Notes under the pieces: model-generated | Database searches by the model: none | The model's input: only the letters and a program-made list of their open reading frames with translations | What the model was told of the DNA's origin: nothing | Shown here: positions 56,608 to 59,950 of the stretch, one piece after another | How positions within the stretch are numbered: position 1 is the first letter of the stretch | Layout: each line of letters opens with the position of its first letter | Assembly: GCA_027214385.1 (NCBI GenBank) | Contig: JAPVXR010000010.1 | Coordinates: 62,001 to 126,000, forward strand | Origin: Cryomorphaceae bacterium 1068 | GTDB taxonomy: Bacteria > Bacteroidota > Bacteroidia > Flavobacteriales_D > Cryomorphaceae | Direction: 5' to 3' | Length of the DNA: 64,000 nt | Translations under genes and position numbers: made by a program

Positions 56608-58116
56608 TTAGCCTTGGTATTTTATTCTTAAAATACAAGGCTTCAAACTTTCCACCCTTTGGGCTGTACTGCTGTAATAAAGTCTGTTTCTAGTTGGTAA
56701 TTTGATGTCGTAAGTCGTACCAAACTCAATAAATTCTTTGACTTTAACGACTCCCTGAGAAAGCTTTCCTTCATCTGACTCAATCATGATGCCCTTCAAC
56801 TCTCCATACTCCGAAAATAAAGGGGCGCCAGGGAACAATGCATCTCCACCTACCCACATAGTCTCCAATTCAGAAAATTGTGTTGTGGCCTCTCCAAATA
56901 GAAGTTTCCCATCGGAATATCCCAAAGAAATCAGTTCATCTCCCACTTCTGCAGCTTTTGGAGAAAAACGAAAAGGGACTGAAGTGCGCAAAACCGAATC
57001 GACCAATAGTAGCGCTAGTCCTGTTTTTTTGTCAATTGACACTACCTCTGCAGAACCATTATGAGAGAGCTCATTACTTACACTGATCATATCACCCTTA
57101 CTTAAATCCTCAGCAGTGGTGAGAGCAAATCCATCTTCGTTTATGATGAATGCACTTTTCTCTTTCCATTCAAGAACAGGAACTTGCACCGTATCTACTT
57201 TCATAGTATCCACGACTATTTCGGGCTTTGCTACCTCTTTGTTACTTGCGTAATTGTAAAGTCCGAAAGAGGTAAGTACGGAGACTACAACAGCAACCAG
57301 CGCTGTAAAAGAAATGAGTTGTAATGGTTTCATTTTGATCTTTTTTGGATTGTCCTCCATCTTCTTCAAGTTACTCGCATCATCAGGCAGCAAGCGATCC
57401 CTGAATTCTCTTAAGATGGTCGTTCGCTCTTTGGAACTGACATGGTTCTTTACCGTCGCCACTACTCTGGAGGTCATAGCCAGACAAACATCCATTTCAG
57501 GTCCTTTAGGCTTCTCCGTACTTTCAGGAGCTATCACGTAATTTAAGCACTTTGCAAAATCTTCACTTTTGATATCAAAAGCTTTATTCTCAGTAAGCTC
57601 TACCAACTTCCTCAAGCATCCCGATAGGCGATTGATGGCTCTTTCTTCGACACTAAAACCCAATCGCGGACCAACTTCTTCGAAGGGCCTTCCCTCTCCG
57701 ATCAATTCGAGCATCATGGTTCTACAAGGCTCACCAATTAATGCCAACTTCGAAGCAGCTTTTTCACTTCTTTCGTTCATTAAATCAATCTCGTGAAAAG
57801 CATGATCGAGGTCGTAATACTCTCGGCGATGCTGTACGAAATTCAAGTCCACATTACGTTTTTCGAGTTTTTTAAGCCAAATGATTCTGGAAAAAGAATA
57901 AATCAATCCGGAGGCCTTCTCAAGATATGTCTTTCCCTTGAGTTCGACAGAGCGAGTGTAGTAATAGAATGCTTCGATGTATACATCCCGAGCTTCCGAA
58001 AAGGAACCTTTATTTTCGGTAATGAAACGAAGAACAGGAAAATAGGAAGACTTAAACTGATCCTCTAGTGTTTTCCAATCTTCATCTGTGAAAGTGTACC
58101 ATTTCTCTACGTTCAT
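56608..58116 (-). CDS. Sigma-factor-like/TM/pseudo-HtrA fusion protein
   Basis: A 502-residue protein of unusual architecture. Residues about 20-90 resemble ECF sigma region 2 (FITENKGSFSEARDVYIEAF). Residues about 120-175 resemble region 4 (GEPCRTMMLELIGEGRPFEE then RLGFSVEERAINRLSGCLRK). A linker (176-260) leads to one membrane helix (LQLISFTALVAVVVSVLTSF, 265-284). The outer domain (318-465) follows the trypsin-like HtrA strand order: SAFIINEDGFALTT, IDKKTGLALLLVD, VGDELISLGYSDG, GDALFPGAPLFSEYGELKGI. The positions of catalytic His, Asp and Ser read A-E, G and A, so it is predicted catalytically dead. It is convergent with trxB and divergent from an S41 protease gene. Confidence 0.75.
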   Translation of the reverse strand: MNVEKWYTFTDEDWKTLEDQFKSSYFPVLRFITENKGSFSEARDVYIEAFYYYTRSVELKGKTYLEKASGLIYSFSRIIWLKKLEKRNVDLNFVQHRREYYDLDHAFHEIDLMNERSEKAASKLALIGEPCRTMMLELIGEGRPFEEVGPRLGFSVEERAINRLSGCLRKLVELTENKAFDIKSEDFAKCLNYVIAPESTEKPKGPEMDVCLAMTSRVVATVKNHVSSKERTTILREFRDRLLPDDASNLKKMEDNPKKIKMKPLQLISFTALVAVVVSVLTSFGLYNYASNKEVAKPEIVVDTMKVDTVQVPVLEWKEKSAFIINEDGFALTTAEDLSKGDMISVSNELSHNGSAEVVSIDKKTGLALLLVDSVLRTSVPFRFSPKAAEVGDELISLGYSDGKLLFGEATTQFSELETMWVGGDALFPGAPLFSEYGELKGIMIESDEGKLSQGVVKVKEFIEFGTTYDIKLPTRNRLYYSSTAQRVESLKPCILRIKYQG

Positions 58117-58159: not shown

Positions 58160-58169
58160 GCGTATACGC
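58160..58169. promoter_or_regulatory. 10-bp palindrome upstream of the sigma-like fusion gene
   Basis: GCGTATACGC is a perfect palindrome 44 bases ahead of the ATG at 58116, in the divergent spacer shared with the S41 protease gene. It could be an operator for either gene. TTAGTTTC, a weak -7-like stretch on the minus strand, lies between it and the start. Confidence 0.3.
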
Positions 58170-58339
58170 CTGAATTGCAGATATGTTTCAAGAGCATATT
58201 TCAACAGAAGTTTGAAGGAACTTTTGGTGGAGAAAGACGTTAGAGATGCTTGTCGTAAGACTTTAACTGGAATTAACACTGCCATACCAACCCTAGAGGG
58301 CCTTTAAAGCGTTATCTTTAGGATTCGAAAGTATTTAAT

Positions 58340-59950
58340 ATGAAAAGACTCATCTTAGTCACCATTGCCGTTCTGGCTTTTACGGTATCAAAAGGCCAAT
58401 CAGAAGAAAATCAACCCGAATTCAGAAAAGCTGCAGAGAAAATCACTGCGCTTCTTTTTCATTTGGAAAATAGCTACGTAGATAGTGTAGATCTTGATGA
58501 TCTCGTGGATGACGCGATAAGGGAGGTTCTTGGAGAACTGGACCCACATAGCGTTTATATTCCTGCTGAAGATGTAGCTCGAGCGAATGAAGGGCTAGAA
58601 GGCAATTTTGAAGGAATCGGTATTCAATTCAATATTTTAAGAGATACAATTACGGTTGTTTCCCCTATTGCGGGAGGACCAAGTGAATCCCTAGGGATTA
58701 TGGCCGGTGATAAAATCGTGAGTATTGATGGCGAAAACGTAGCGGGTATTGGCGTCACCAATAGCGATGTTACATCAAGCCTTCGCGGAACCAAAGGAAC
58801 GGAAGTAACCGTCGGTATACGAAGAAGAGAAACAAATAAAGTGCTCATTTTTGACATAGTGCGGGACGAAATACCACTATACAGTCTCGATGCCTCATAC
58901 ATGGCTACGGATAAAATCGGCTACATCAAGATCAACCGTTTTTCGAAAACGACTATGGATGAGTTCCATGTAGCTCTCAAATCCTTAAAAGAACAAGGCA
59001 TGAAAGACTTGGTGCTAGACTTACAAGGAAATGGTGGAGGTCTTTTGGAAACGAGTCGTCAATTGGCAGATGAGTTTATCAGCTCAAGTAAAATGATCGT
59101 CTACACAGAGGGAAGAAGTTATCCGAAAAGAGAAATGGTTGCTACTTCCAAAGGTGAATTTGAAGAAGGCAGACTCATAGTACTAACCAATGAAGGTTCA
59201 GCAAGTGCGTCTGAAATCGTTTCAGGAGCTGTCCAAGACTGGGACCGAGGCTTGATAGTTGGGCGAAGAACATTTGGTAAAGGATTGGTTCAACGACCTA
59301 TTCCTCTTCCGGATGGCAGTTATATCAGGTTAACCACACAGAAATATTTTACTCCAAGCGGGCGCTGTATCCAAAAGCCTTATGATGATGGAATGGAAGC
59401 ATATTACCGAGAAAAATTTGATCGCTATGAGAATGGTGAACTTTGGTCGCTGGATAGCTTGGATTTTCCGGACTCCTTGAAGTATTCTACCGAGAATGGC
59501 CGAGTGGTTTATGGCGGAGGTGGAATTGTTCCTGATGTTTTTGTTCCCTTGGATACAATGGCATCTTCGGATCTGAACAATGACCTGATCCGAAAAGGGA
59601 TAATGAATTCATTTGCGATTACCTACACCAATAAGCAGAGAAAAAAACTACTGAAAGAGTTCGCGAATGTCGAAGCCTACATAAAAGGATTCGACATCGA
59701 CTCAGCCATTTCGGATCTTAAAGACTACGCAGCCAAAGAGGATGAAGAAATAGATTGGAACGAAGAAGACTTCGCAAGATCGAAGGAGATGATTGCGGGG
59801 AGATTAAAGGCTCTCATCGCGCGAAACTTATGGGATTTTAGCGCGTACTACCAAGTATTCAATCCTTATTGGAACACTTACAATAAGGCCATTGAAATAC
59901 TCAAGGAGAACGACTACGACGAATTTAAACTCGCCGATACGCGGTTTTAA
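58340..59950 (+). CDS. C-terminal processing peptidase, S41 family
   Basis: A 536-residue periplasmic serine protease with a signal peptide (LILVTIAVLAFTVSKGQ). A PDZ domain (about 85-175; NFEGIGIQFNI, MAGDKIVSIDGENV) precedes the catalytic domain, where NEGSASASEIVSGAVQD supplies the nucleophile (S289 by comparison with E. coli Tsp) and TFGKGLVQ the base K314. It cleaves proteins at their C-termini. A C-terminal helical region follows (about 410-536). It is divergent from the sigma-like fusion gene, which carries a dead protease fold; the two might be functionally linked (inference). Confidence 0.95.
   Translation: MKRLILVTIAVLAFTVSKGQSEENQPEFRKAAEKITALLFHLENSYVDSVDLDDLVDDAIREVLGELDPHSVYIPAEDVARANEGLEGNFEGIGIQFNILRDTITVVSPIAGGPSESLGIMAGDKIVSIDGENVAGIGVTNSDVTSSLRGTKGTEVTVGIRRRETNKVLIFDIVRDEIPLYSLDASYMATDKIGYIKINRFSKTTMDEFHVALKSLKEQGMKDLVLDLQGNGGGLLETSRQLADEFISSSKMIVYTEGRSYPKREMVATSKGEFEEGRLIVLTNEGSASASEIVSGAVQDWDRGLIVGRRTFGKGLVQRPIPLPDGSYIRLTTQKYFTPSGRCIQKPYDDGMEAYYREKFDRYENGELWSLDSLDFPDSLKYSTENGRVVYGGGGIVPDVFVPLDTMASSDLNNDLIRKGIMNSFAITYTNKQRKKLLKEFANVEAYIKGFDIDSAISDLKDYAAKEDEEIDWNEEDFARSKEMIAGRLKALIARNLWDFSAYYQVFNPYWNTYNKAIEILKENDYDEFKLADTRF

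Follow-up and report, generated by a model that had tools for sequence, protein, structure and literature searches.

A sigma-like module fused to a membrane-anchored, triad-less HtrA-type domain in the Cryomorpha family

Sigma factors in one chain with membrane and outer domains

The DegS/RseA/RseP/sigma-E pathway is built from four separate proteins, among them an active DegS. The protein described here shares the logic of that pathway, which joins an HtrA-type sensor to an anti-sigma factor, a sigma factor and a site-2 protease, but the putative sensor, anti-sigma and sigma parts lie in one chain here, and the HtrA fold has no catalytic triad. Sigma and anti-sigma parts in a single polypeptide are known from IutY of Pseudomonas putida (ECF243), a hybrid whose processing by the S41 protease Prc and by RseP is described in the available part of PMC5411451. 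Like the present protein, IutY combines a cytosolic ECF sigma, a membrane helix and a periplasmic domain; its outer part, however, is a cell-surface-signalling anti-sigma domain, whereas in ours it is an HtrA fold lacking the triad, and features kept by the relatives are missing from the sigma part.

The available portion of a review (PMC8999054) names IutY as the only proteolysis-activated fused sigma characterised experimentally, and lists ECF48, ECF52 (SCO4117), ECF53 and part of ECF36 as carrying, or being expected to carry, anti-sigma parts in the same chain. All of these resemble our protein in uniting an ECF sigma, an anti-sigma-type part and membrane helices, but have other outer domains; ECF48, ECF52 and ECF53 are reported there for Actinobacteria, with zinc-finger domains. 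Within that portion of the review, neither "trypsin" nor "Bacteroidetes" appears and an HtrA domain goes unmentioned. For Bacteroidetes, the accessible text of PMC7406223 reports a recognised class I anti-sigma nearby for only 6% of ECF sigmas. Titles and abstract openings, which cover the literature in part, described no such sigma/HtrA layout among the matches listed. The initial annotation of this DNA had called the layout undescribed; this stands as far as the HtrA-type domain is concerned, which the accessible text on the known fusions does not mention, but sigma/anti-sigma fusions as such are known, as IutY illustrates. The protein is probably a new kind of signalling protein on a known theme.

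Anatomy and origin of the fused protein

The fused gene occupies positions 56,608..58,116 on the minus strand of the window, by which we mean the whole stretch of 64,000 nucleotides analysed, and its translation runs from 58,116 down to 56,608 as an open frame of 502 amino acids plus stop. Full-length homologues of the protein in other genera exclude a chance frame. The ORF is real, and its layout agrees broadly with the first reading. The N-terminal part had been assigned to an ECF sigma factor over residues 20-175. Indeed, residues 10-176 are homologous to ECF sigmas: in a profile-profile comparison with hhalign they matched a profile of 15 unfused ECF sigmas at 99.7% over 165 columns, and all 15 of those sigmas match Pfam Sigma70_r2. 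What the assignment overlooked is the loss of features that unfused relatives keep, so that the suggested one-component envelope-stress factor is a possible reading and no more. In the proposed check against the Pfam region 2 and region 4 models (Sigma70_r2 and r4), the window protein matched neither. No sigma model matched in Pfam and NCBIfam scans of the whole fused protein, and the Sigma70_r2 matches in ten fusion-carrying genomes (E up to 0.001) included no fused copy. In a profile search of the PDB, the fused sigma region found chance matches alone; the unfused sigma profile found SigW, AlgU-type and RpoE chains.

Structure prediction gave moderate support for the sigma part. The AlphaFold2 model of residues 1-255 had a mean pLDDT of 87 and a pTM of 0.79 (0.44 for the whole protein). 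Foldseek returned nothing significant for the N-terminal model (best E 0.66). VIA-align, which re-aligns Foldseek candidates alone and could therefore miss a fold absent from that list, filled places 1-15 with sigma factors or transcription complex chains, the best of them (Z 7.7, rmsd 16.5, 143 residues) lying under the tool's safe level.

The sigma part has changed in particular places. The region 2-like domain (residues 10-89; 57,850..58,089, minus strand) keeps SFSR..W..KL.KR, and much of regions 2.3/2.4 is conserved in the fused copies. The region 2.2 Gln, which we take to be a core-contact residue of sigma, is replaced by Ile47 in the window protein; it is present in 13/13 unfused rows and 0/10 fused rows, a degenerate pair from genome G021 being left out. 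The sigma2-sigma4 linker (residues 90-121; 57,754..57,849, minus strand) is unusually conserved within the Cryomorpha family, with an identity of 0.62 vs 0.29 in 8 unfused relatives. In the region 4-like domain (residues 122-176; 57,589..57,753, minus strand), the recognition helix at 157-176 has neither the AKNQKYKC.RLKK consensus nor the positive charge. Residues 161-167 are invariant in the 13 unfused rows and unconserved in the fused ones, and the net charge of the helix, +5 to +7 in the 13 unfused sigmas, ranges from -1 to +3 in the fused copies and is 0 in the window protein. These helix figures rest on 13 unfused pairs, with the degenerate G021 pair and a paralogue from the window's own genome set aside. 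Helix identity is 0.49 among 8 fused copies vs 0.86 among 8 unfused ones of one family, while over the whole sigma part the two sets are similar (0.55 and 0.59). The shift in conservation was supported by column permutation (p 0.0001 for the linker, 0.004 for the helix) and weakly by a circular shift test (0.067 and 0.19). The sigma part is the best conserved stretch of the fused protein (0.55, vs 0.12-0.39 elsewhere), which indicates that it is under selection.

Behind the sigma-like part, the single membrane helix at residues 265-284 (57,265..57,324, minus strand) was borne out. Six Lys or Arg residues lie within the 15 residues before it and two after it, which by the positive-inside rule suggests an N-in/C-out topology. 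Between the sigma-like part and this helix, residues 183-245 (57,382..57,570, minus strand) occupy the place of an anti-sigma domain, an identity that shows only in the second fused family: in its two members (G008 and G019), the segment after the sigma was recognised by hhalign as the N-terminal domain of the unfused partner described below, at 93.8%. In the Cryomorpha family, that domain was unrecognisable in residues 176-261 (hhalign 0.2%), and the segment holds the same place before the single membrane helix.

The outer domain (residues 316-470; 56,707..57,171, minus strand), predicted to be periplasmic, adopts an HtrA/trypsin fold in the predicted model, as the initial reading held; the model superposes on HtrA1 (Z 11.3, rmsd 3.6, 128 aligned) and on DegS (Z 11.1, rmsd 3.1, 133 aligned). 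Pfam yielded a sub-threshold Trypsin_2 match at 321-443 (E 0.00017) plus one chance-level match and nothing else, and NCBIfam gave weak DegS/DegP matches. No PDZ domain was among the Pfam matches for the C-terminus, and the chain ends 32 residues past the HtrA domain in a tail (residues 474-502; 56,611..56,697, minus strand) that can be aligned with the tail of the unfused partners. The claim that the catalytic triad is lost stands, since no readable fused copy has a complete one, although the assigned Ser-to-Ala replacement was wrong: the triad positions of the window protein are Glu, Gly and Pro, and it is Pro429 that aligns with the Ser. In the fused rows, from which a separate C-terminal piece of the G006 copy was left out, His is kept in 0/9, Asp in 4/9 and Ser in 2/8 readable ones, and all three in none.

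Searches with the fused protein matched 24/60 related genomes, and the fused gene is present in all eight genomes of the Cryomorpha family, split by contig ends in G006 and broken near its end in G007. Wider searches were made in samples of the order (299 genomes) and of the class (396 genomes), with the best matches listed. Among the matches listed for the order, fusions occur in 10 genomes, namely the eight of the Cryomorpha family and the two of one other family. Among those listed for the class (E up to 1e-20), the fusion was found in the window's own genome only, and 13 matches extend across both genes, which are separated by one or two stops. The homologue survey that had been proposed at the outset thus found the same fusion in 10 genomes, but elsewhere the parts are two adjacent genes.

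In these other Bacteroidia, an ECF sigma gene lies next to a gene for a membrane protein with an HtrA/trypsin domain. The partner opens with a small helical domain (IERYLEGEMS type), which is followed by a membrane helix and a Trypsin_2 domain (E 3.5e-22 and 1.1e-22 at loci L009 and L010). Fourteen such pairs were read in the order, the degenerate one included; His and Asp of the triad are present in 13/14 rows and Ser in 12/13 readable rows. The unfused pair is homologous to both halves of the fused protein and differs from it in being two genes, in its triad, intact in 12/13 fully readable copies, in the AKNQKYKC motif, invariant in 13 rows, and in its own promoter, GGGTKACC..GGATATA. Retention of the triad in relatives had been named as evidence against the first reading; it is seen in the unfused relatives, while the fused ones lack it. 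No paper describing the unfused pair was found among the matches listed. By gene order and position, the partner would be an anti-sigma factor; none of the five partner proteins scanned matches a Pfam anti-sigma model.

The degenerate pair (L084, 1671-3255, minus strand) consists of a sigma without a sigma Pfam match and a protease domain without a triad; it is unfused yet degenerate in both parts, so that the loss of both also occurs without fusion. A related unfused pair in the window's own genome (L028) has a TPR outer domain by Pfam. Other related Bacteroidota sigma genes (L016, L017, L018 and L021) are likewise followed by a gene for a membrane protein of similar N-terminal type, with outer domains that by eye are TonB-like, TPR-like or unassigned. 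With that of L028, these membrane proteins may form a modular anti-sigma-like family.

Comparison of the genes shows that the window protein arose by fusion: one polypeptide holds homologues of two genes that adjoin elsewhere. We consider it nearly certain that these were an ECF sigma gene and its adjacent membrane partner gene, and regard the anatomy and the fusion origin as firm. The suggestion that such a protein would need no anti-sigma factor does not survive this comparison: the chain resembles a sigma joined to an anti-sigma factor of its own, the two being adjacent genes in unfused relatives. In a tree of joined pairs and fusions (22 rows, not including G016 and G006), the two fused families group at 90/97, on long branches that may attract each other; the branch of the degenerate pair has a length of 4.6. 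An S41 protease gene also lies near the fused gene in both families, and a single origin of the two is likely.

Promoters and neighbours of the fused gene

An ECF-type promoter-like dyad, GAAACA-N15-CGTATA, lies at 58,163..58,189 on the minus strand, spanning 47-73 bases upstream of the fused gene's start codon. In its general form, GWAACM-N14..16-CGTA, the dyad precedes the fused gene in 8/8 family members, scored 67-114 bases upstream (73 in the window), and 2000 Markov sets never had it in more than 2/8; the dyad was counted in the same sequences in which it was found. The best dyad from an unbiased search occurred in 5/8 sequences over 150 bases, where Markov sets reached at most 4, in 1/100, and over the last 100 bases upstream there was no signal. 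No dyad was found near the fused gene in the second fused family. The shape of the dyad recalls the Bacillus sigma-W promoter.

The ancestral promoter is gone. GGGTKACCTT within two mismatches on the gene's strand was found upstream of 20/20 unfused genes (12 exact, 7 with one mismatch and 1 with two) and 0/10 fused ones, a criterion that shuffled sequences reach in about 12%. The 20 loci are a separate set, picked by the motif [AP]KNQ[KR]YKC in a short ORF with four duplicates dropped; since they were chosen by the helix motif, they tell nothing about helix conservation. By eye, GGATATA or GTATAAA mostly follows GGGTKACC at the unfused pairs, and a second copy often faces the divergent side. 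The resulting bidirectional code, GGGTKACC..GGATATA, is highly conserved at 20 loci among L070-L083 and L092-L104; at L078, the sole one whose divergent neighbour was scanned, that neighbour is a YfbK-type von Willebrand protein. A likeness to the ancestral promoter with two mismatches, on the S41-facing strand of 4/10 fused regions, was dropped as more likely a TAnnTTTG-type box, which we take to be the usual promoter box; moreover, the TTAAC repeat next to it (described below) is also seen ahead of S41 genes in genomes without a fusion among the matches. The same box is found in the available text of PMC9723704. That text also describes how T9SS genes, a TPR protein and an ECF/anti-sigma pair of Flavobacterium psychrophilum are driven by the SM6 motif, with its CGT -10 box; the SM6 promoters are like the dyad here in the CGT -10 box and the TPR target, a likeness drawn from these two traits and not from the full SM6 motif.

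A related site, G[AC]AACA-N15/16-CGTA, stands 49-55 bases before the gene of a very long TPR protein in 7/8 family members, with scores of 12.9-18.6 where 99% of controls lie below 9.5. The TPR gene itself (L243-L250) has an open frame of 2309-2449 residues in 7/8 family genomes, with the site at a near-fixed distance. Upstream of the TPR gene, weaker sites were also scored in one species from the second fused family (11.9) and in one that has the unfused pair (11.6), and another ECF sigma may therefore read this promoter. The strict pattern TGAAAC-N15..17-CGTAT gave 7 matches vs 4 in the reversed control in the window's own genome, and 38 vs 48 in the eight family genomes, and is thus not enriched in number. 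Four of the six other strict matches in the own genome lie 24-42 bases before start codons, those of a lipoprotein (presumably MltF-like), a secreted protein, a TPR protein and a short HNH-like ORF, and two of the four sites are found again upstream of the corresponding gene in the sister species. The dyad also lies upstream of one of the 33 other sigma genes in G000 and G005, which we read as SigP-like; the 33 do not include the two sigmas of some 300 residues in G000 and in G005. That this own-genome sigma shares the dyad was rejected as a lead, as 0/6 assessable family orthologues and 0/4 genomes outside the family have it, the family locus L234 being left out for too little upstream DNA.

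Divergent from the fused gene, as the initial reading had it, lies a gene for an S41 C-terminal processing protease with a PDZ domain (58,340..59,950, plus strand), a candidate site-1 or trimming protease. It adjoins the fused gene in the loci of seven relatives (in two pieces in L035), is some 4.8 kb distant in the second fused family, and in the unfused genomes G038, G011, G032, G157, G175 and G099 the best S41 match is on another contig or far off. On the other side, trxB lies downstream of the fused gene, as read by eye, and is likewise kept beside it in all six family loci long enough to include that region; gene order there appears simply to be stable, making the S41 adjacency weak evidence. 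Beyond the S41 gene, on the upstream side of the fused gene, lies a gene for a DUF1573 protein, and further neighbours are presumably leucine synthesis genes, again by eye; the neighbourhood is unremarkable. One M50 match was found in the window's own genome.

Before the S41 gene there is a TTAAC-N5-TTAAC direct repeat (58,263..58,277; TTAACTGGAATTAAC), the sole one with a spacing of N5-7 within the window. By eye, the repeat recurs in intergenic regions of the Cryomorpha family, and it lies at -68 to -86 of the S41 gene in 4/8 other loci read, three more loci having no readable ORF. Two of those four loci come from genomes in which no fusion was found. The repeat is possibly a regulatory site of the S41 protease gene.

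A proposed mode of action and its rivals

We tentatively propose, at somewhat less than even chance, that the fused protein is a membrane-tethered regulator derived from a sigma factor and released by proteolysis, and that it has ceased to be an ordinary sigma. In a shared ancestor of the Cryomorpha family and the second fused family, the gene of an ECF sigma would have merged into one frame with that of a membrane anti-sigma factor whose outer part was of HtrA type. The product would sit in the inner membrane, its sigma-derived module facing the cytoplasm and its HtrA fold on the outer side. Having no serine triad to cleave with, the outer domain most likely serves to bind a peptide, a misfolded protein or a partner. 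By analogy with IutY, sensing would expose the chain to regulated proteolysis by a site-1 protease, perhaps the divergent S41 enzyme, and then by the M50 site-2 protease, and cleavage would free the sigma-like module. The replaced region 2.2 Gln, the altered -35 helix that unfused relatives conserve and the missing ancestral promoter suggest that the freed module is probably no ordinary promoter-reading sigma. Kept by selection, it may act by contacting other proteins, either RNA polymerase or a different ECF sigma, one whose GAAAC/CGTA promoter would drive the fused gene. A more specific version, which we regard as possible though rather doubtful, is that of a doubly degenerate protein, a pseudo-sigma linked across the membrane to a pseudo-protease: a sigma mimic that retains the sigma fold under selection but does not read promoters, has gained a new conserved surface in its linker, is released by proteolysis and modulates RNA polymerase or the ECF sigma whose promoter drives the gene.

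Several observations weigh against the proposal of a released, non-ordinary sigma. The conserved ECF-type site before the fused gene in all eight family members also fits an autoregulated working sigma, and the loss of the helix consensus could equally mean a changed specificity. Much of regions 2.3/2.4 is retained, the swap in conservation is weak by circular shift, and a single one of the 33 other sigma genes has the dyad, which its 6 assessable family orthologues lack. The second fused family has its S41 gene some 4.8 kb from the fused gene, near which no dyad was found, and in the Cryomorpha family the anti-sigma domain is unrecognisable. Loss of the ancestral promoter and of the helix at first seemed to prove that the sigma is dead, a view given up when the dyad came to light; with the dyad before the fused gene, an active sigma stays a strong rival. 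On that account, the protein would be a fully working one-component sigma like IutY, with a new specificity, autoregulated through GWAACM-N14..16-CGTA and controlling a small envelope regulon after release by an S41 protease and RseP. The dyad in 8/8 members against at most 2/8 in Markov sets, the related site before the TPR gene in 7/8, the strict matches near start codons with two recurring in the sister species, and the IutY precedent all favour it. It has to accommodate the absence of the Gln from all 10 fused rows, a recognition helix that is hardly charged and variable though the -35 box is conserved, the lack of a Sigma70_r2 match, strict matches no commoner than in the reversed control, and the weaker TPR sites in a species of the second fused family and in one with the unfused pair, in view of which another sigma may read the promoter. 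We judge a working sigma to be on the improbable side. Our slight lean toward a module that is no ordinary sigma comes from the changes themselves, which hit residues that 13 unfused relatives never alter while the rest is conserved.

The sigma-like part may instead have left transcription altogether, with the protein serving as an adaptor at the membrane, its helical module and its dead HtrA domain both acting as binding scaffolds, for example for the S41 protease. The loss of sigma-specific features with the gain of linker conservation would suit such a role, as would the divergent S41 gene in the seven relatives and its position some 4.8 kb off in the second fused family; but the equal retention of trxB points to stable gene order, and an ECF-type promoter site precedes the gene; we consider this reading unlikely. 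Most improbable of all would be a decaying relic of a sigma/anti-sigma pair without function. Loss of the triad, of the helix consensus and of the ancestral promoter, and the long branches in the tree, are what decay would leave, yet the gene is present in every genome of the family, its sigma part is 55% identical on average and its promoter dyad is conserved.

For the Bacteroidia, the unfused pairs suggest a family of anti-sigma-type proteins that carry an HtrA outer domain and are served by a clear promoter code. The fused branch shows the outcome of merging such a pair: a protease without its triad, a changed promoter code and constraint on a new surface. How one-component sigma signalling or sigma mimics may originate thereby becomes testable in a named relative, Cryomorpha ignava.
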